Source of the DNA: Dethiobacter alkaliphilus
GTDB taxonomy: Bacteria; Bacillota; Dethiobacteria; DTU022; UBA8154
Length of the DNA: 64,000 nucleotides
Assembly: GCA_016841605.1 (NCBI GenBank)
Contig: JAENYV010000002.1
Span: 62,001 to 126,000 of the forward strand
Direction of reading: 5' to 3'
Each line of letters starts with the position of its first letter. Position 1 is the stretch's first letter. Shown one piece after another: positions 14,801 through 25,496 of this stretch. A model generated the notes under the pieces. The model worked only from the letters and a program-made list of their open reading frames with translations, was not told where the DNA came from and did not search any database. A program made the translations under genes and the position numbers.

Positions 14801-15541
14801 CTATAAAATGAGCGAAAAGCCCCAGCCGTTCCATTTCCACAAGGTAACTTTTTTCTCTCCGGGATCAGAGTAACTGCCCTCCACAACTACCAATTCGTTT
14901 TCGCCGTCGCGGTTAAGGTCCATAAGGACGGCCCGGTAGTTCGGACGGTCCAGGTTTGACGACTGCCACACAGGTCTGAAAGTGCCCCTTTCCAGTTTAA
15001 AGATGAAGAGATGGTTTTTAACGGCGGGATTATCCTCTTCCACCCAAAAGGGCTTAAGGTGACCAAAGCTTCCCTCTTTCCAGACCAAAAGGTTTAGCTC
15101 GAGGTTGCCGTCGTTATTGGTGTCACCCGGAAAGAAATAATCCACCCACCACTCATCCGGTGACTGCCAGATAGTACGGGAATCTGCAGATACCGTTATC
15201 TTTCCGTCGCGCAAAGTATATTCTTCCGGCTTGCCGTCCCCGTCCAGATCCAATTCCCGGCTTTGTACCAGCCGGTATTCCTGCAAGGGCTTTTGGGTCC
15301 GGGGTACATACTGCTCCCCTGCTGCGAAGACCTCTTTTTGGCTGTCCCAAACCGGAAGTTCCTCCACCGCTACCGGACAAGAAGTCTCTTCCATTTCCGG
15401 GAGCTTCATGCGGGCCTCTCTGAAGGCTGTGATGTCATGAATTTCCCCGCTTCCGCTGTGCTGCTGCGGAGCAAGTACACCGAAGCAGCACAGCAGCCCA
15501 GCGATCAGCAGGAGGGTCAGTACCCGCAGGGAGAGTTTCAT
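14801..15541 (-). CDS. Secreted FG-GAP/VCBS-type repeat protein
   Basis: About 246 aa. The start is placed at the ATG at 15541 because it overlaps the DUF3160 stop (ATGA) and opens a clean signal peptide (MKLSLRVLTLLLIAGLLCC); the frame extends 23 codons further without sense. Three Asp-rich calcium-type loops are visible: DLDGDGKPEEY, GDTNNDGNLEL and DLNRDGENELVVV, typical of FG-GAP/VCBS beta-propeller repeats. Three such repeats are too few for a full propeller. It is translationally coupled to the DUF3160 lipoprotein, so the two probably act together outside the membrane. Function unknown. Confidence 0.72.
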   Translation of the reverse strand: MKLSLRVLTLLLIAGLLCCFGVLAPQQHSGSGEIHDITAFREARMKLPEMEETSCPVAVEELPVWDSQKEVFAAGEQYVPRTQKPLQEYRLVQSRELDLDGDGKPEEYTLRDGKITVSADSRTIWQSPDEWWVDYFFPGDTNNDGNLELNLLVWKEGSFGHLKPFWVEEDNPAVKNHLFIFKLERGTFRPVWQSSNLDRPNYRAVLMDLNRDGENELVVVEGSYSDPGEKKVTLWKWNGWGFSLIL

Positions 15542-17718
15542 GGGGCGATAAAGATCTCGGTCCATTGAGCCGGAGACGGCGCCTCTTCCGAGTCCAGCCT
15601 CTCTTGCCACTTTTTGTCCGTAAGACGATCTTCCATGAGCCAGGGAAATTCGTAGTGTGAGTAGACACCGCCCCGGGCAATTCTTAGGCTGCCGTCAACA
15701 GGCACCACAGCGTATATATCAAAAATATGCCCCGTCGCCTCTTGCATGACATAACCCTCGACGTTTGTGGCCACATCGGTCACCAGAGCCGCCGGGTTTT
15801 CGGCGATAGCTGACCTGTGGTCCACACCTTTATCCCGCAGGGCCTCCAGCCAAAAATGCTCCAGCTGCCCTCCATATGAACGGATCAAGTCATATTCCTC
15901 GTCAGTAAGCGGGATATCGGAAAGTTGCTTCTCTGATATTGTCTTTAAAGAGAGGGCCAGCTGCTCCAGCCGCTCCAGGCTTTCCCGGTCCGTCTGCTCC
16001 AAAAGGTTCCGGGACGAAAGCCCCTCCCGCGTCATCTTCACCAGCGCGGCCAGGCGGGCATAGAGATGCGGATTTGGCTCCACGTACCCACGATCATCCA
16101 CCCTGTCCATACCGCCACCCATTTCAGCATAAACCTGTTTGGCATAAAGAATAGTATCATGCTTAAGCTCGGTCCAGCTGGACAGATATGTATTTAAGTT
16201 TTTTCTGGTCCAGGCTTTGCCGTGCATAAAGGAGGGGTATCCTTCCCCCTTCTCTCCAAGTAAGGATTCAAGGGTATAAAGCCAGCCCCAGTACAGGTTC
16301 TGAATCCAGTTTTCTTTATCCAGGCCGGCGATGTATTCCCGCAGTTTATTCATGTTCTCCGGGTAGCCCTTGTAGTCCGTTTCCCCCTCCGCCTCCAGGA
16401 TGGCGTAAGCTTCCTCGGAGCCCATGGCAGCGGGGATATCCAGCGCCCTGGGCAACATTCTTCTCTCATCCGCGCTGTTTTCTTTCACTTCACGGTAAAC
16501 CAGCCGCTGAAAAATGGAGGCATCCAGGGTAAAGCGCTGCCCCATCAAGCGAAAACCCATAATTTCTCTCTGGCGGTCCGGTTGTATCTCCTCCTCCATA
16601 ATAGGGACTGAGTTTATAAGCGGAGGTTCTAAATCTGCCGCGGCATCCATAAAGGCCTCCCATTTATCTCCGCCGGAGGCGATCTCCTCAAGCTCCGCGC
16701 CGTCATGGTAGATCTCTTCCAGCAGCTCTTGGTACTGTAAAAAGGATAGGTCGTCGCTCTTACCCACAAAAAAGCAGGTGGGCTGGTATATTCTATCCCA
16801 TTTTTGTCCGTTATCCCCTTCGGCAAGAGCCAGGGTAATCAAAACTGCGGATTTTGTTTCATCTTCACTCTTAAGCCGGAAAGTCATTCTTCCGTACCAC
16901 ATCATGGTCTTAAAATAAGACTGCAACAGTTCGTCATCATCATAATGGCCCCGGGGAATGTACTGGGAGTAATCCTCCTTTAAAGCCTCCTGCCACGATA
17001 AATCTTGCCCCATATTCATGAGGGGAGAGGGCTGGAGATCGGCGCGGCTTTCAATAAGGGCAAGTTCTTCTTCCACTTCTTTCTTAACCTGTCCGGGAAT
17101 GGACATTTTCGGGTCCAAAAGCCTTCCCGCCACGGCAAAAAAGCCCAGGTTTCTTTTGGCGGCGTTCTCCCAGCCGGTTCCCTTGAGCTCAGCGTACTGC
17201 CTTTCGCTTACGGAGAGCATGGAGGCGGTGAGTTCTTTTAACTCCGGTGCCAGCTTTTCCTTTTCCGTAACCCGGAGCAGGTGGTCAAAAAACAGATGGT
17301 AGTTATGTAACATTGAATCGGTGGTAATAAAACTGGGAACCGGCTCATAGCGGTTCATTTCATAGAGCATGAAAAACTCCCTGTTTGAGCCGGGAACCAC
17401 AACAAACCCATTTTCTACCAACAACCGCTCCGCTTCCGGAGATAACCTGAACATATCCCGGTTGGTAACATTGCTCAATCCGGGTTCCACCTCATAGGGC
17501 TTTACTGCCGGAGTAAAGTCTAACGGCTCCTCTGCATAAGCAGCAAACCCCAGGTCCAGGGCCAACGGGGAAAAAACATTCTCTCCAGCCGGACCTTGCT
17601 CCACTTCTCCGGTCTGACCTTGTTCATATTGTTCGCTGTCCCCGCCGCAACCCGCCACAGCAGTGAAAAGAAGCAGTATACAGACAGCCCAGGTAAAAAA
17701 CTTCTTTCTCTTTGGCAC
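15538..17718 (-). CDS. DUF3160-family lipoprotein
   Basis: 726-aa exported lipoprotein. The signal peptide ends in a lipobox (TAVAGCGGD, Cys at about residue 24), so the mature protein is anchored outside the cytoplasmic membrane. The body is a DUF3160-like helical domain (SFITTDSMLHNYHLFFDHLL is the characteristic opening at about residues 129-148), rich in Glu and Trp. No catalytic motif is known. It starts with GTG at 17718, 10 nt after AAAGGAGG; a promoter lies at 17825-17853. It is coupled by ATGA overlap to the FG-GAP-type gene. A role in polymer or envelope handling is only a guess. Confidence 0.82.
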   Translation of the reverse strand: MPKRKKFFTWAVCILLLFTAVAGCGGDSEQYEQGQTGEVEQGPAGENVFSPLALDLGFAAYAEEPLDFTPAVKPYEVEPGLSNVTNRDMFRLSPEAERLLVENGFVVVPGSNREFFMLYEMNRYEPVPSFITTDSMLHNYHLFFDHLLRVTEKEKLAPELKELTASMLSVSERQYAELKGTGWENAAKRNLGFFAVAGRLLDPKMSIPGQVKKEVEEELALIESRADLQPSPLMNMGQDLSWQEALKEDYSQYIPRGHYDDDELLQSYFKTMMWYGRMTFRLKSEDETKSAVLITLALAEGDNGQKWDRIYQPTCFFVGKSDDLSFLQYQELLEEIYHDGAELEEIASGGDKWEAFMDAAADLEPPLINSVPIMEEEIQPDRQREIMGFRLMGQRFTLDASIFQRLVYREVKENSADERRMLPRALDIPAAMGSEEAYAILEAEGETDYKGYPENMNKLREYIAGLDKENWIQNLYWGWLYTLESLLGEKGEGYPSFMHGKAWTRKNLNTYLSSWTELKHDTILYAKQVYAEMGGGMDRVDDRGYVEPNPHLYARLAALVKMTREGLSSRNLLEQTDRESLERLEQLALSLKTISEKQLSDIPLTDEEYDLIRSYGGQLEHFWLEALRDKGVDHRSAIAENPAALVTDVATNVEGYVMQEATGHIFDIYAVVPVDGSLRIARGGVYSHYEFPWLMEDRLTDKKWQERLDSEEAPSPAQWTEIFIAP

Positions 17719-17907: not shown

Positions 17908-20900
17908 TTAACGTGTCCCGAAATTCTTCAAGATTGTTTCAATTTCTCCTGCACTCATGGGTTTATAAAAATAATAACCCTGGATCTCGTCACACATCCG
18001 TTGGCTTAAAAATTCAAGCTGAGTATCCGTTTCCACCCCTTCGGCAATAACTTTTAGCTTCAGGCTTTTGGCCAGATGGATCATAACCTGTAAAATTGCT
18101 TCATCCTTATTGTTGGCTGAGATGCCGTGCACAAACTGCATGGCCATTTTTATCCGGTCAATGGGCAGCATCTTTAACCGGCTTAGAGACGAATACTCGG
18201 TGCCGAAGTCGTCAATGGCAATGGTCACGCCAAGCTTCTTCAGTTCACTTAACACGCTGACAATAAAGTCAGCCTCTTTGATAACAGTGCTTTCAGTTAT
18301 TTCCAGTTCAAGATGTTCCGGCTTTAATCCTGTTTACCTGAGAGCATTTTCCACGACGCCGACCAGGTTTGGGTTTCTAAACTGTTCAACAGATAAATTA
18401 ACAGCCATGCGGACAGGGGGGAGTCCCATATCCTGCCAGACCTTGTTTTGATGACAGGCTGTGCGGATTACCCACTCGCCAATGGGATTGATCAGGCCGG
18501 CTTGTTCGGCCAAGGGGATAAACAAGCCCGGCGAAATCATACCCTGGGTCGGATGCTTCCAGCGAATCAATGCTTCCAGACCAATAATTTTTTTTGTAAT
18601 AACGCTAACCTGCGGCTGGTAGTACAGCAATAACTCATTGCGTTCCTGTGCCCGGTACAGGCTGTTCGTGAGCTGCATTTTTTTCAAAACGTCTTCTTTC
18701 ATGACCGGAGAACAAAAGGCAGACCGATTCTTGCCCTGCTCCTTAGCGGAGTACATCGCCAGGTCGGCATTTTTGATCAATGTTTCGGCCTCTTCCCCGT
18801 CCTCCGGATAGACAGCGATACCTGCACTGGCAGTGATAAAAAATTCTTCGTCTTGAACAATTACGGGTTGTTCAAAAGCTTTCATTATATTTTTTACAAT
18901 TTTTTGGATATCTTTTCTCCGGGGGATCTGAGCAAGCATGATCAAAAACTCATCGCCCCCGAAACGTGAGACAGTATCATATTTTCGCACACGCGCGGAA
19001 AGTTTTTGCGCCACTTCCTTTAAAAGCTCGTCCCCCCCTTCGTGGCCCATAGTGTCGTTGACGGCTTTAAATGAATCAAGGTCTAAAAAAATAACGCCGA
19101 TAAATTTTTCTGTCCGCTTGGCCAGGTAGATAGCTTGATGCAGGCGATTCCTTAACAGTATACGGTTGGGCAATCCCGTCAGAGGATCATAATATGCCAT
19201 ATAGTTGATTTCTTTCTCTGCCTCCACCTTTGCCAGTGCGTCTGCCGAGAGGTTTGCCAATATTGTGAGCATATTCAGATAATCATTCCGCCAGTTTTTC
19301 AAGGATTTCAGGGAGTCAAATACGAGAAAACCCATTAGTTTCCCTTTATTTGTCACAGGAATGGAGATCAGTGACTGAATCTGCTGCTTTTTAAGCAGCT
19401 CCTTTTCCTGACCGGCTTCAGGAGGAAGCATATCTACGTCTGTAATAAGCACCACACCATTGTTTTGACTTTGCTCCATCCACCGGGAAAAAAAGTCGGT
19501 GGGAATATCCTCAATGATATTGACGGCTGATTCAATACCGTCGTTGCACCATTCATGAGCATATACCATTTTCTTCTGTCCCTTGGAAAATAGTAAAAGA
19601 TAAGCGCGGTCAACCTGGTAATGTTCTCCGCTCAACTGCAGCATTTGCTTAATTTTTTCATCAAGGTTTGATGAGTTCAAGGTGACAAAAGCAGTTGAAA
19701 TCTGAGAGATCATCTTCTGGAACCTGATTTGCTCATCGTTTTCTTTCAGCCGTTCGATGTAAACACGGTTAACATGAAAGGCCAGCCAGATAACAATCCC
19801 CAAGATACCAATTCTGCCAAGATGATCAGCTCCGCTAACCTGGACCATCAGCGTGGGAGCTTTGAGCCATACAGCGATCTGCGTCAGTATGACGGCAATA
19901 GTTAGTATAACGATCATTCGCCGTTTGCTAAAAACGACCGACAGAATCACAAAGATAAAAGGTACCGCCCATACGGTAATAGCGGCATATTCAAGAAAGC
20001 TCAACGTAATAAAGGGAATTGAAAAGGTTAAGACGAAAATCGAAATTATATCTTTATAATCATCCTGTATTTTCAACTGCTGAACAAAATGTACGGCAAT
20101 ACCCATAAGGAAAAGGGAGATGCTGAAAAACCCTGCGGAGCTCAATGGAGCTTGATCAATAAAATAGTTTGCGATAAAATATAACATGCTGCCCAGGATA
20201 AAGGACAGAGTCAGATACTGATAGATCCTTTTACGGGTGGCTTCACTTAAGATTTCGCCTGTTTCCGGTGTCCGGCTCATTTTATCGGGAATCATTAAAT
20301 CATAACGTTTGATGGCATAAAAAATTGTTGTTATCGGTATCAGGATAATCACGGGACCCATCTGGGGAACATTGGCCGGCAGGTATGTACTAAAGATGAT
20401 GTCGGTCATCGATCCCAGTAAAAGAGCAGTTATGAACGAAGCTGCCAGCAGATACGCCTGTTTCTTTTTTCCTCTCTCCAACACACTTCTTCCCCATTGT
20501 CGTATGAGCCATACGCCTGTAATGGTAAAACCTGCATAATAAATATTGAAGAACCAATCCCATAGATTATTTACGGAGACATTAATCCATCCTGCAGAGG
20601 TATTTACCAGGTTATACTGACCGGTTGCCAGGTCGCTGTACAGAGAAAAAGCAAAGACGATTAACGCGGCAGGCAAATACAACATTAAATAGACCCACAC
20701 TTTTTTTACTATTCTGTTTTTTTCTGTCAAAATCAGAATAAAGTGCAGCAGGATGCTGTACATGGTTCCCCAACCAAAGACAGACACCCGGCGCCAGAAT
20801 AAAACCGTCTCATAATCCGGTGCTGAGTTAGCAATGGAAAAGGCAAATGACCAGACACATAAGGCCAGACAGAGGAGAAAGAAAACACGATTTATCAATG

Positions 20901-20997
20901 CTTTGGTGTTAAGAACAAGGATGTAGATCCCAAAGAAGAAATAGATGGCAAAGGCAACAAAAAAAAACAGGGAAAAGTAGAACGGTAAAATGTTCAT
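17908..20997 (-). pseudogene. 7TM-GAF-GGDEF-EAL cyclic-di-GMP protein, EAL interrupted by in-frame stop
   Basis: Membrane c-di-GMP enzyme. Order: about seven membrane spans of a histidine-kinase 7TM-like sensor (residues 1-230), further hydrophobic segments, a GAF-like region (about 420-590), GGDEF (FGGDEF intact), then EAL (EALIRWKHP). At 18334-18336 a TAA splits EAL in the same frame: ...VVENALR, stop, TGLKPEHLELEITES..., and the remaining 142 codons stay open to 17908. One base change (for example GAA to TAA) explains it. The KID element of EAL is changed to KMA, so phosphodiesterase activity may already have been lost. The truncated product still has an intact cyclase domain. ATG at 20997 follows AAAGGAG. 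Confidence 0.85.
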
Positions 20998-21112: not shown

Positions 21113-22477
21113 CTATCCCTCTGACCGCCACTCCTGCCCATTAACGGAATTATAGCCCAAAAAAACATCGGACGGTTTGTCTTGTAAATATACTTGCCGG
21201 TAATTCTTTCTCTTTTTTGCTTCTTCATAGAAGCTCGCTGCTTCCTTTCGGCAGGAGGAACACGCGGTAAAAGGAACAGAAATACATAAGGCTTTTCCGT
21301 CGCTCAATCCGTAACCATGGTTTACTTCTGTATCTATGGCCAGGTAACCTGGACAGTTGTCGCAAATCCTGAGTTTTTCCACCTGCTCTTCAATAAATCC
21401 GTCGGTATCGTAGAAGATCCTTTTTACCCGTTCATAATAGTTGCCTTTAATGAGCTTTGGATTCGGCAAGGCCTGATCACGCTTTTCCCATTGCTGGAGA
21501 AGGGAGTTGACCATCCGGTGGATATAACCGGTCAAATCTGAGCTTTCCCTAAAAGTCTGCAAGTCAGGTTCACGGACGTAACTATAGTCAAGTCCCGCCA
21601 ATGCCAGGATAATCCCCATATTTACATACGGCAGAGCAGTTTCAATGGCATAGCCCCCCTCCAGCACGGCCAGGTCCGGACGCAGTTTCTCCGTCAGCCT
21701 GGCATATCCCTGAGCAGTAACCTTCATGCTGCCAAGCGGGTCGGTATAATGGTTGTCCTGGCCCGCGGAATTTACAATAAAATCCGGCTTAAAATCACTC
21801 AGGATGGGCAGGATGAGATTGTCTAGGATATATAACATGCTTTCGTCGGTCGTTCCGAGAGGTAAAGGAATATTCAGAGTGCGGGCATAGGCTGTGGGAC
21901 CACCCAGTTCATCTGCGAAACCGGTCCCGGGGAAAATGGTACGCCCGTCCTGGTGGAAAGATATGAAGAGAACATCCGGGTCGTGCCAGAAAATATCCTG
22001 GGTTCCGTCACCATGGTGAACATCCGTATCAATAATGGCCACGCGCTTGATGCCGTGACGCCGGCGCAAGTAATCGACCATGATTGCTTCATTGTTGATA
22101 TTACAAAAACCGCGGTTACCGTGAACCACCCTCATAGCGTGATGGCCCGGAGGCCTGACCAGAGCAAAGCCGTTTTTCAACCGTCCGGAGACTATCTCAT
22201 CTGCCAGGAGAATCGCCGCTCCCGCTGCGATCAGGTGCGCCTCGGTAACCCGGTCCTCCACACGTGGCACACAGAATTGCGTCATGGCAATGTCATGCGT
22301 TTTTGCCAGAACAGAAACGTATTCCGATATTTGCGGAAGGTCCATGATCCCCTCTTCAAAAATTTGGTCACGGGTATAAAGAAGACGTTCCTCCCTTTCA
22401 GGATGTGTGGGAGAAATAGCCCAGTCAAAAGCGGGAAAGAAGATTAATCCGGTCTTTTTATCGCTGGAGTTTCGCAT
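21113..22477 (-). CDS. Class II histone-deacetylase-like amidohydrolase with C-terminal zinc ribbon
   Basis: 454 aa. Residues about 1-330 are an arginase/HDAC-fold zinc amidohydrolase: RPPGHHA, the DTDVHHGDGTQ metal motif, the second aspartate ligand in AGQDNHYTDPLG and the catalytic Tyr in EGGYA are all present. Bacterial relatives deacetylate polyamines, acetoin-pathway enzymes or small amides. About residues 370-420 add a CxxC...CxxC ribbon (CDNCPGY and CSSCRKEA), unusual for the family. It begins 2 bp after the hyuA-like stop, so the two are tightly coupled. Substrate unknown; the pairing suggests a small-molecule amide route rather than protein deacetylation. Confidence 0.85.
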   Translation of the reverse strand: MRNSSDKKTGLIFFPAFDWAISPTHPEREERLLYTRDQIFEEGIMDLPQISEYVSVLAKTHDIAMTQFCVPRVEDRVTEAHLIAAGAAILLADEIVSGRLKNGFALVRPPGHHAMRVVHGNRGFCNINNEAIMVDYLRRRHGIKRVAIIDTDVHHGDGTQDIFWHDPDVLFISFHQDGRTIFPGTGFADELGGPTAYARTLNIPLPLGTTDESMLYILDNLILPILSDFKPDFIVNSAGQDNHYTDPLGSMKVTAQGYARLTEKLRPDLAVLEGGYAIETALPYVNMGIILALAGLDYSYVREPDLQTFRESSDLTGYIHRMVNSLLQQWEKRDQALPNPKLIKGNYYERVKRIFYDTDGFIEEQVEKLRICDNCPGYLAIDTEVNHGYGLSDGKALCISVPFTACSSCRKEAASFYEEAKKRKNYRQVYLQDKPSDVFLGYNSVNGQEWRSEG

Positions 22478-22479
22478 AT

Positions 22480-24156
22480 TTATTTACCCCCCATCTTAAT
22501 TGGAACGGCTATGCCTCGTGAAGTCTGAACGGTCAGGTCATACAAACGGCCGACAGTATTCCAGCCCCTGATCATATTAAATACTTCCTGATGTGTAACT
22601 TCAATTTCTTCCGGACTTACCTCCAGGCCGTATTCTGCAGCCTTGTCGAGCAGTTTTTCCCTGGCCAGTTCCAGCGCTTTCCCTTCGTTAAATGAACGCC
22701 TATCGATTTTTCCTTGAAAACCGTCTTCTCGGATATGATAGTAACCCTGTTCGGTATCGGCCCGCAAGCTTATCTGCAACGTGGGTTTGGCCACTGCGGC
22801 CCCGATAGCGTTAGCTACCGGCGCGTAAGGCGGTATTATCGCTTGACAACCCAGTTCAGAGGCAATACGCGGGATAAAACCCTCCGATCCTCCACCTACT
22901 CCGACAACGATGGAAGGGGAAACTTTCCTCTTCTGCAGCAGTTCCCAAATACGGTAAGCAGGCTCCTGTTCCCATTCCAGAAACATTTTTTTAACTTCCG
23001 CGGTTATGCTCTTTACCACCAGGCTCATTACTTTTTCGGCTGTCTCAACGGCACTCATACCGAGAGGAGTACCCAGGCTCTCCATCGCCTCCCTGGCTTT
23101 GCCTTCATCCCCCAACCCGGTCAGGTCCAGGACCCGCAGGGCATCGGTTGGAGTCGGTACCGGCCCGCCCAGACAATAAGCAGGGCCAAGCCTTTCCGGG
23201 CGAAAAACGATTTCATCTCCGACACGCTCCAGGATGCTGTCACCGCCCACAGGGACCGATTTAACAGCCAGGGTACGAACCTGCGTAAGTTGCCCCTCTA
23301 CCCTGGCACCCTTGGCGGAAAGTAAAGGCTGCCCGTTTAAAATCAAGGAGATGTCTGTCGTGGTACCACCGATATCTATTGCTACTTCCGTCAGATCCGG
23401 GGAGGTCAGGGACTGTACTCCCACAGTGCTTGCCGCAGGTCCGGAAAAAATGGTTTCCACCGGCAGTTCTACGGAATGTTTCAACGGTAAAGTCCCTGTA
23501 TCGGCTTTTAAAATAAAAACTTCCGCCGTTATTTCTCTCTTGGCCAGCGCCTGACGGACGGAATTTACAAAATTGCTGTAAGGCTCTCTTGTCGCGCAGG
23601 TAAGAAAGGTCGTCACCACACGCCTGGGAAAATTAAGCTGAGGACCGGCCTGGAACCCCAGCTCCACCTGCCAGTCAGGATATTTTTCTTTAATAATCTC
23701 CGCGACCTGTTTCTCGTGAGAGCTGTTACGGGGAGAGAATTTCCCGATGATTCCGACCTTTTTAAATCCCTTTGTTGCCAAACGGGTCAGCGTTTCCTCA
23801 ATCTCCTTTTCATTTAAAGATACTATTTCCCTGCCACGGTAATCGATCGCGCCGGAAAGGATGCATACTTCAGTTTTAAAGTCATACAGCTTATGGCTCA
23901 GACCGGGCCCGGGAATCAACAGCAAGGCCACTTTGTCGTATTTTTGTCCGGCGATAAGGTTAGTGATCACCGTAGTACTGAAAACAATTCTTTTTAAGTC
24001 CCGGATATCAACATCCTGCAGGACAATATCGAGTGCTTCCAGAATGGATTCCAACAGATCCGTTTTGGTCGGTATTTTTGCGGTGGTAAGTATTTGCCCA
24101 TTATGCAAAAGAACCGCATCGGTAAAAGTACCCCCCACATCTACACCAACATACAT
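22480..24156 (-). CDS. Hydantoinase/oxoprolinase-family ATPase (HyuA/AcxA-like)
   Basis: 558-aa ASKHA-fold ATPase of the hydantoinase A/oxoprolinase/acetone carboxylase beta family. Visible motifs: phosphate-1 VDVGGTFTDAVLL at the N-terminus, a second VAIDIGGTTTDISLI near residue 270, and GVGGGSEGF near 425. The usual partner HyuB (alpha subunit) is absent; the neighbour is the HDAC-like enzyme instead. The ATG at 24156 is preferred over 24174 because AAGGAGGGGG precedes it by 4 nt. Substrates in this family include 5-oxoproline, hydantoins and acetone, none of which can be assigned here. It follows mscS by 26 bp. Confidence 0.82.
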   Translation of the reverse strand: MYVGVDVGGTFTDAVLLHNGQILTTAKIPTKTDLLESILEALDIVLQDVDIRDLKRIVFSTTVITNLIAGQKYDKVALLLIPGPGLSHKLYDFKTEVCILSGAIDYRGREIVSLNEKEIEETLTRLATKGFKKVGIIGKFSPRNSSHEKQVAEIIKEKYPDWQVELGFQAGPQLNFPRRVVTTFLTCATREPYSNFVNSVRQALAKREITAEVFILKADTGTLPLKHSVELPVETIFSGPAASTVGVQSLTSPDLTEVAIDIGGTTTDISLILNGQPLLSAKGARVEGQLTQVRTLAVKSVPVGGDSILERVGDEIVFRPERLGPAYCLGGPVPTPTDALRVLDLTGLGDEGKAREAMESLGTPLGMSAVETAEKVMSLVVKSITAEVKKMFLEWEQEPAYRIWELLQKRKVSPSIVVGVGGGSEGFIPRIASELGCQAIIPPYAPVANAIGAAVAKPTLQISLRADTEQGYYHIREDGFQGKIDRRSFNEGKALELAREKLLDKAAEYGLEVSPEEIEVTHQEVFNMIRGWNTVGRLYDLTVQTSRGIAVPIKMGGK

Positions 24157-24182: not shown

Positions 24183-25358
24183 TTAAAGCCTGCCGTTTTC
24201 AATGTTATCTCCCAACTGACGAACATCTCCGGACTGATGAACAGCACTATTTTCCCCATTTTTCGTCCTATTTAATTCCAGGGGCGTTTCCAGGTAAAGA
24301 CTGCGGCTTGGGAAAGCAACGGAGACCCCCTCTCTTTCCAATATTTCCATTATACTAAAGTTAATCTCTTCCTTTATCTTTAAAAATTCCCCCCAATTTG
24401 TGGTGATAGTAAAAAAATAAAGGAATATGTCCAGACTGCTTTCGTTAAAACGTTCAAAATGTACAAAAATTGTCTCTTGATGCACCCCCGGATGATTTTC
24501 CAGCAACTCCCGAATCAGTTGCACACATTTTTTCAGTTTTGCCGGCGGAGTAGTGTAGGTTACCCCCAGGTAAAAGTTAATGCGGCGTTTGCCCATACGT
24601 GTCCAGTTTGTAATCGGTTCATCAGCCAGTTTTGCATTGGGCACGGAAACTAAAGAGTGTGCAAATCCTCTGATCTTCGTACTTCTAAACGTAATATCCT
24701 CCACTGTTCCCTCCACGCTGGGAGTTGAAATCCAGTCTCCGATGGTAAAAGGCTTGTCGGTAATGATTATTATTCCGCCGAAAATATTGGATAGAGCATC
24801 TTGCGCTGCCAGGGCCACGGCCAGGCCGCCCAGCCCCAACCCCGCGATCAGGCCGCTGACCTCATAACCCCACTCCTGTGCAATAACACTCAAAGCCAGC
24901 GCAATAATGACCACCTTCAACACTTTGCTCAAAAAAGGGATCAGAATACGATCAACCTGCAAACCGAGCTTTTGGGCCGTGCCTTCGTGGAGAATTGTTC
25001 CTGACAGGTTGTACAAACCCCAGGTAACAAGAACAATTAGAGCGACTCGTAAAAATTTGAGCAGGAGATAATTCTGATAAGAAGTAAGGGGCAGGATCGT
25101 CAAAGCAAAATAAATGCTCAGAATAATAAAGAGCATACCAAGAGGGCCTTCAAAAGCGAGCAAAAAATTTGTGTCGATATCTGTCGCGGATTTGTGCGCA
25201 AGCTTAAGAAGTAGTTTAAAAAAGTAGCGGGTAAAAACCCTTCTTAAGAAGAGAAAGAACAAAAAAATAAAAACAGCCGCGACAATTTTCATCCACCAGA
25301 TATTTGTTAAGATAATAAATACCTGCATTAACTCTTCCAGTATAATCCATCCTTTCAT
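24183..25358 (-). CDS. MscS-family mechanosensitive channel
   Basis: Small-conductance mechanosensitive channel protecting against osmotic downshock. About 391 aa: four or five membrane spans (about 1-160), the pore helix with alternating Gly/Ala (GLIAGLGLGGLAVALAAQDAL at about 180-200), then the beta and alpha/beta vestibule domains with the family element GDWISTPSVEGTVEDITFRS. The frame stays open to 25439 but abuts the rnj terminator, so a start at 25358 (TAGGGTT upstream) or 25328 (GGAAGAG upstream) is more likely. It precedes hyuA by 26 bp and may be the first gene of mscS-hyuA-HDAC. Confidence 0.87.
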   Translation of the reverse strand: MKGWIILEELMQVFIILTNIWWMKIVAAVFIFLFFLFLRRVFTRYFFKLLLKLAHKSATDIDTNFLLAFEGPLGMLFIILSIYFALTILPLTSYQNYLLLKFLRVALIVLVTWGLYNLSGTILHEGTAQKLGLQVDRILIPFLSKVLKVVIIALALSVIAQEWGYEVSGLIAGLGLGGLAVALAAQDALSNIFGGIIIITDKPFTIGDWISTPSVEGTVEDITFRSTKIRGFAHSLVSVPNAKLADEPITNWTRMGKRRINFYLGVTYTTPPAKLKKCVQLIRELLENHPGVHQETIFVHFERFNESSLDIFLYFFTITTNWGEFLKIKEEINFSIMEILEREGVSVAFPSRSLYLETPLELNRTKNGENSAVHQSGDVRQLGDNIENGRL

Positions 25359-25442
25359 TAACCCTATTTTACCAGTTAGCTCCTCTGTATGCAAGAGGAC
25401 ATAACAAGCCGCCTCTTCCCAAACAGATAACCTTTTCATCCG

Positions 25443-25488
25443 TACAAAAGGATGCCCTTTCCGCCACAGGGAAAGGGCATCCTTTTGT
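25443..25488 (-). terminator. Rho-independent terminator of rnj
   Basis: A perfect 20-bp stem (arm TACAAAAGGATGCCCTTTCC, loop of 6 nt) 9 bp after the rnj stop. T-rich flanks on both sides allow bidirectional action. Confidence 0.88.
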
Positions 25489-25496
25489 AATCATTT

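Follow-up and report, generated by a model that had tools for sequence, protein, structure and literature searches.

A conserved gene pair encoding a HyuA-type ATPase and a ribbon-bearing HDAC-fold amidohydrolase in Dethiobacter alkaliphilus: a candidate deacylase module

The window considered here, that is, the whole 64,000-nucleotide stretch of DNA that was analysed, comes from Dethiobacter alkaliphilus (GCA_016841605.1, contig JAENYV010000002.1, positions 62,001-126,000). It contains a gene for a short HyuA-type ATPase followed by a gene for a zinc amidohydrolase of the HDAC fold, which carries an extra C-terminal domain resembling a zinc ribbon (Table 1). These two genes are inherited, moved and lost together; two enzymes of known fold are neighbours in about 40% of the 348 genomes sampled from the phylum and also in methanogens. 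Tentatively, and with confidence somewhat short of even, the two genes can be read as an obligate module, with an HDAC-type zinc deacylase for short-acyl substrates in the place of HyuB and HyuA as its partner. The novelty lies in the pairing, not in the parts. A sequence-only reading of the window had pointed to an HDAC-fold gene, with an added CxxC...CxxC ribbon, that starts 2 bp after a HyuA-type ATPase gene without HyuB. Both open reading frames (ORFs), the spacer, the domains and the four cysteines are as it described; the adjacency and the ribbon fusion, sought in other genomes as that reading had proposed, are not peculiar to this genome, and the ribbon cysteines are conserved.

The conservation is extensive. 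The window's phylum was sampled by 348 genomes with a completeness of 90 or more, of which 141 match a ribbon-domain profile and 139 a HyuA profile at E<=1e-80; 137 have both. In 134 of these 137, the genes lie on the same contig and the same strand in the order HyuA then HDAC, the median distance between the HyuA match and the ribbon being about 1024 bp. Exceptions in this sample include HyuA genes beside a contig-truncated HDAC gene (G640, G477), short or cut contigs (G601, G676, G495), and a pair divided over two contigs (G082). When loci of weaker matches were fetched, all 20, including the weakest whole ones, proved to be an HDAC gene with HyuA upstream. A survey of 71 genomes from the window's order finds a close HDAC in 21 (the window's own plus 20 at 55-78% identity, one of them partial) and a distant HDAC of about 355 residues in 37. 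HyuA is directly upstream at 19 of the 20 close loci outside the window, the remaining locus beginning at the HDAC gene itself; it is upstream at none of the nine distant-type loci examined. At the level of the class (75 genomes, completeness 85 or more; HDAC at E<=1e-80, HyuA at E<=1e-40), HDAC occurs in 22 genomes and HyuA in 21, all of which are among the 22, and the odd genome has its HDAC gene at the start of a contig.

The same arrangement holds in the named loci, which are the best 80 of 526 confirmed relatives and which span Pelotomaculum, Desulfotomaculum, Desulfotruncus, Thermincola, Syntrophomonas, Methanothrix, Methanosarcina, Syntrophobacterales, and others. HyuA is directly upstream of HDAC in all 80. 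For four loci (L078, L083, L103, L119) this placement was taken from match coordinates, and for L127 it was settled by a separate follow-up; in L110 the HyuA gene is broken over three frames, and L061, L095, L117 and L120 are among the loci where a contig end or frame break leaves only a partial HyuA. Furthermore, over 100 aligned pairs, the distance matrices of HyuA and HDAC correlate with r=0.89, the maximum obtained by permutation being 0.19. Given the conservation counts, the adjacency is not due to chance.

The second protein of the pair matches PF00850 (E=1.4e-69, over the cut-off), and its AlphaFold2 model (predicted local distance difference test, pLDDT, 89.8; predicted template modelling score, pTM, 0.92) has the arginase/deacetylase fold. 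The nearest solved fold to the core, residues 4-334, is Acinetobacter Kdac1 (8szu_A; Z 39.8, root-mean-square deviation 2.3 over 323 residues), other near folds being HDAH and HDAC6; the VIA structure comparison took in about residues 1-336 only. Seven residues (H112, H113, D150, D152, H154, D241 and Y276) are invariant in 100 of 100 pairs, four ribbon-less archaeal pairs included. The H112/H113 pair, the Asp/His/Asp zinc ligands and the catalytic Tyr are assigned their roles as in HDAC structures. Q240, N242 and H243 are also invariant in these pairs, giving a constant Q240-D241-N242-H243, and ordinary HDAHs of the same order have Ala-Tyr at positions 242-243 (four sequences). The paired HDAC has the fold, the seven catalytic residues, and the RPP and EGGY motifs in common with bacterial HDAH/Kdac1 and class II HDACs (PF00850), but differs from them in its C-terminal ribbon, its invariant Q240-D241-N242-H243 and its constant HyuA partner. 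AcuC-type deacetylases belong to the same superfamily, and of the roles proposed, their regulatory deacylation comes nearest. NCBIfam contains no family for the paired HDAC.

In PMC11532494, a survey from 2024, the RPP and EGGY motifs accompany short acyl chains, long-chain deacylases of the HDAC11 and VcHdaH type have RPP replaced and an XGGY motif with a small X, and polyamine deacetylases have either a gatekeeper Glu (PEG) or a PIS motif. The paired HDAC retains RPPGHH and EGGY, unlike the long-chain deacylases. Its gatekeeper position, matched to the published motif by our own reading of the alignment, is PLG in the window protein and is Leu in 93 and Ile in 7 of the 100 pairs. An acetylpolyamine enzyme was rejected on this ground, since the residue is neither the Glu of PEG nor part of PIS; the acetylpolyamine amidohydrolases (cluster 4 of PMC11532494) are of the same superfamily but lack this Leu/Ile gatekeeper. 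Because of RPPGHH, EGGY and the Leu gatekeeper, with the motifs interpreted as in that source, a short-chain lysine deacylase is suggested. From the sequence we infer that the substrates would be short-acyl and non-polyamine, most simply acyl-lysine in proteins.

The region from about residue 334 to 454 is modelled by AlphaFold2 as a confidently folded, beta-rich domain. Its four cysteines are present in 78 of 78 long forms and in all 96 ribbon forms among the 100 aligned pairs. No Pfam family matches the domain above its cut-off, and the only matches are weak ones to zinc ribbons. The ribbon was also considered as a stand-alone or shared domain; nearly all of its matches in the phylum sample are in HDAC-length frames, and no stand-alone copy was recognised, the short frames opened being contig ends or remnants and only some of the frames from the 141 ribbon genomes having been opened. 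An acetone-carboxylase gamma-like zinc subunit as the possible source was set aside on sequence grounds, neither Pfam nor PDB sequence searches giving such a match.

The first protein of the pair contains the domains PF01968 (Hydantoinase_A, E=1.7e-42) and PF05378 (Hydant_A_N, E=8.1e-34), both above the cut-off. Its AlphaFold2 model (pLDDT 90.0, pTM 0.86) has as its nearest folds, by Foldseek, N-methylhydantoinase (9h03), acetone carboxylase beta, acetophenone carboxylase (Apc) and caprolactamase. It shares its N-terminal and core domains and its ASKHA fold with the classical HyuA/HyuB enzymes (5-oxoprolinase, caprolactamase CapAB, N-methylhydantoinase, acetone/acetophenone carboxylase), in which the HyuA gene is likewise beside that of a metal hydrolase. 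Unlike those enzymes, however, the pair is without Hydant_A_C and without HyuB, the partner being an HDAC-fold enzyme. Pfam does not find Hydant_A_C in the paired HyuA, but does find it in the only other HyuA of the window genome, a classical HyuA-HyuB fusion on a different contig. Matches to NCBIfam models are far below the named cut-offs (89 vs 1000 bits), and profiles of acyl-CoA dehydratase activase and further ASKHA activators are matched weakly. Across the 100 aligned pairs, the tested residues of the DIGGTTTD motif are invariant, and the ATP motifs are conserved. K139, R179, K217 and D219 are also invariant; the stretches containing K139 and K217/D219 are not shared in the alignments examined with solved structures.

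The history of the pair can be followed through transfer, decay and replacement. The 24 ribbon-form archaeal pairs make up one group in the trees of HyuA, of HDAC and of both, with one bacterial metagenome-assembled genome (MAG; L135) inside it. In the joint tree, which was rooted on the ribbon-less archaeal forms as an assumed root and which has one backbone node with a support of 0.012, this group is nested among Bacillota beside L108 (supports 0.944 and 0.998). The topology fits a passage of the unit as a whole from a bacterium into methanogens. In two MAGs, labelled Armatimonadetes (L063) and Gaiellales (L135), the pair groups with relatives of Desulfotomaculum in the first and with methanogens in the second, a placement that reflects either misbinning or transfer. 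Two other genomes contain what by sequence are remnants of joint decay: in G647 only a ribbon remnant is left between mutS and mutL (L214:3255-3488, a 78-residue scrap), and in G578 a single ORF fuses the start of HyuA to the end of HDAC (L212:4432-5379).

Within the 71 genomes of the order, an ordinary HDAH is present in 37, the ribbon form in 21, both in none, and neither in 13; in genus g10, the two occur in different species. This mutual exclusion suggests that the ordinary HDAH and the ribbon form overlap in function. A pyruvate kinase gene is beside the ordinary HDAH in all 14 loci fetched (L168-L181; identified through similarity in all of them and through Pfam in L174), the gene order in L174 being dnaE-pfkA-pyk-thioesterase-HDAH. 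In these loci, the ordinary HDAH comes after pyruvate kinase and, in many cases, a 4HBT thioesterase, a conserved deacylase setting. Among 295 archaeal genomes of the phylum of Methanotrichaceae, an HDAC (E<=1e-80) was found in 32, comprising 26 ribbon forms and six shorter forms (362-399 residues), two being flagged for a TAA in the matched frame. The ribbon-less archaeal pair precedes a gene of 355-360 residues (L158:5039-6103, and genes of equal size in L156 and L161); the product in L158 is a polyferredoxin with many 4Fe-4S motifs. One Methanosarcina genome (G097; L163-L165) has several HyuA-like paralogues of about 650 residues, some in tandem, and one paralogue pair there adjoins a pyruvoyl-dependent arginine decarboxylase.

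The genomic setting of the pair varies. Of the 80 named loci, 32 have it flanked by mutS and mutL, and 37 have at least one of these two genes nearby; among the 20 divergent loci, seven have the mutS-mutL placement. The gene order in one Pelotomaculum is miaB, ylbF, mutS, hyuA, HDAC, mutL, methyltransferase, miaA, spoVK, and in L063 and L121 the pair is inside a miaB-miaA locus without flanking mutS and mutL. This setting is absent at the window pair, at the methanogen loci and at the other 13 divergent loci. No neighbour recurs in the methanogen and these other divergent loci, except for a MurB-type gene upstream in three of the 13 (L196, L205 and L206, with Pfam run on L206). The methanogen neighbours AdoMet synthetase (L091), a phosphorylase (L077) and, in Methanosarcina, a histidine kinase (L105) were set aside, as none recurs across lineages. 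ADP-forming acyl-CoA synthetases are an enzyme class often under lysine-acylation control; in one genome, such a gene follows HDAC on the same strand (L197:5055-7235).

Enzymes of the HDAC fold use zinc to hydrolyse N-acyl amides, and those of the HyuA type use ATP. In the favored reading, the two products would act together, with the HDAC zinc hydrolase in the position that HyuB has in the classical HyuA/HyuB enzymes. The HDAC would take short acyl groups off amines, most likely those of protein lysines, the ribbon might contribute to the binding of HyuA or of the substrate protein, and HyuA could spend ATP on activating, gating or pre-processing the substrate. The pair would then serve deacylation in anaerobes with abundant reactive acyl-CoAs, replacing the ordinary HDAH of their relatives. 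A more specific version, that this is an ATP-coupled deacylase system of anaerobic Bacillota, passed as a unit to methanogens, in which a HyuA kinase phosphorylates the substrate or energises it in another way and the ribbon HDAC hydrolyses it, making the removal of the amide ATP-dependent, appears doubtful. The acyl-lysine angle comes from habitat only: in the available portion of PMC9676460, Syntrophomonas wolfei has abundant acyl-lysine marks, and a sirtuin is the only candidate eraser named. S. wolfei subsp. methylbutyratica and S. zehnderi carry the pair (L124, L134), which is a concrete candidate for an acyl-lysine eraser of syntrophs.

Several observations weigh against this deacylase reading. 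HDAC-type deacylation requires no ATP, and the role of HyuA is therefore unexplained; furthermore, its invariant K139, K217 and D219 hint at a specific small substrate. Four of the six ribbon-less archaeal relatives keep an adjacent HyuA, so the pairing can do without the ribbon. In the remaining two (G209, G219), HDAC and HyuA are on separate contigs, and in G684 of the phylum sample about 3 kb separates the two genes, which are on opposite strands. The position between mutS and mutL has no obvious fit with metabolic deacylation, and many other contexts of the pair are unrelated to acyl metabolism. Finally, the chance of 1.7e-9 calculated for the exclusion between HDAH and ribbon form assumes independent genomes, and their shared ancestry inflates this statistic.

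The sequence-only reading had suggested an ATP-driven activation or ring opening of an amide followed by zinc-dependent deacylation. In this small-molecule route, HyuA would phosphorylate a lactam, a hydantoin or another amide with ATP, and HDAC would hydrolyse the activated or opened product, as a housekeeping repair or salvage of a spontaneous cyclic amide. The neighbours of HyuA in fold (caprolactamase, N-methylhydantoinase, acetone/acetophenone carboxylase) act in this way on lactams or ketones, the hydrolase HyuB would simply be exchanged for another metal hydrolase, and the family-specific invariant residues, R179 included, suggest a dedicated ligand. A PF01979 amidohydrolase also adjoins the pair at one locus (L198). 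However, no conserved transporter or catabolic gene was found beside the pair in the loci examined, Hydant_A_C and HyuB are absent, and named HyuA enzymes are matched only far under cut-off; we consider this route unlikely. A link to nucleic acids, in which the pair would serve mismatch repair or position-37 tRNA modification, for example by removing acyl groups from a modified base or a repair protein while the ribbon binds nucleic acid, is improbable, although the mutS-mutL placement, the miaB-mutS-mutL-miaA-spoVK locus and the weak resemblance of the ribbon to nucleic-acid zinc ribbons speak for it. So does the presence of mutL in 26 of 26 ribbon-form archaeal genomes and in none of the six ribbon-less ones (background 223 of 295), but this split is probably one of two lineages that mutL may merely mark. 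In addition, the contexts in the window genome, the methanogens and 13 of 20 divergent loci are different, and the pair may be just a passenger in mutS-mutL loci.

Alternatively, HyuA could be a regulatory or chaperone-like ATPase, like the ASKHA activases, and could load metal into HDAC or switch it without any substrate chemistry. Its conserved ATP motifs and its weak profile matches to activators are compatible with such a role, which is nevertheless quite improbable, given that the best matches are to catalytic HyuA enzymes and that the ordinary HDAH of the same order works without such a partner. That the two enzymes have separate functions and merely share an operon is very improbable: genes of one operon often have nothing to do with each other, and mutS, mutL and miaA may be such neighbours of the pair, but this pair co-occurs across contexts, across domains and in its joint loss. 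A role in anti-phage defence was considered as well, and no PADLOC model matches HyuA or HDAC.

To our knowledge, no ATP-dependent HDAC-type deacylase is known; if the use of ATP by the HyuA-HDAC pair is confirmed, it would represent a new way of driving deacylation. The sequence-only reading knew of no described system with this pairing, and no account of it was found in the literature searched, which did not cover subscription papers and preprints. PMC11532494 makes no mention of hydantoin, of a zinc ribbon or of a C-terminal domain.

Table 1. Features of the HyuA-HDAC locus (positions in the window)
Feature	Position	Strand	Description
hyuA	22480..24156	-	short HyuA-type ASKHA ATPase, 558 residues, first gene of pair
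HDAC-fold amidohydrolase gene	21113..22477	-	454 residues, C-terminal zinc-ribbon-like domain, second gene of pair
C-terminal ribbon domain of HDAC	21116..21478	-	last 121 codons; C372, C375, C406, C409
Spacer, hyuA stop to HDAC start	22478..22479	-	2 bp; from sequence
mscS	24183..25439	-	by Pfam; ends 26 bp upstream of hyuA; local neighbour, outside conserved unit
Terminator-like stem, RNase J/mscS interval	25443..25489		20 pairs; consensus scan only; probable upstream border of local transcript

At the window locus, a G-rich stretch resembling a ribosome binding site precedes each gene of the pair, that of HDAC overlapping the end of hyuA. The tested neighbours, by Pfam, are MscS and a GGDEF/EAL protein, and not HyuB. 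The distance to mscS given in the sequence-only reading is correct; its suggestion that mscS may belong with the pair does not extend to a conserved unit, since the other loci examined (L036-L135) have no mscS match close to the pair. The window genome has a second, smaller HDAC, in a 257-residue frame. Further along, 15538-17718(-) encodes a large lipoprotein-like DUF3160 protein, of unassigned function, with a full-length match (E=2.7e-235). In the GGDEF/EAL protein, 18334-20997(-), the EAL match stops halfway (profile positions 2-108 of 236), and the adjacent frame 17908-18255(-) resembles the remainder of the EAL domain; together they are a probable frameshift or broken gene.

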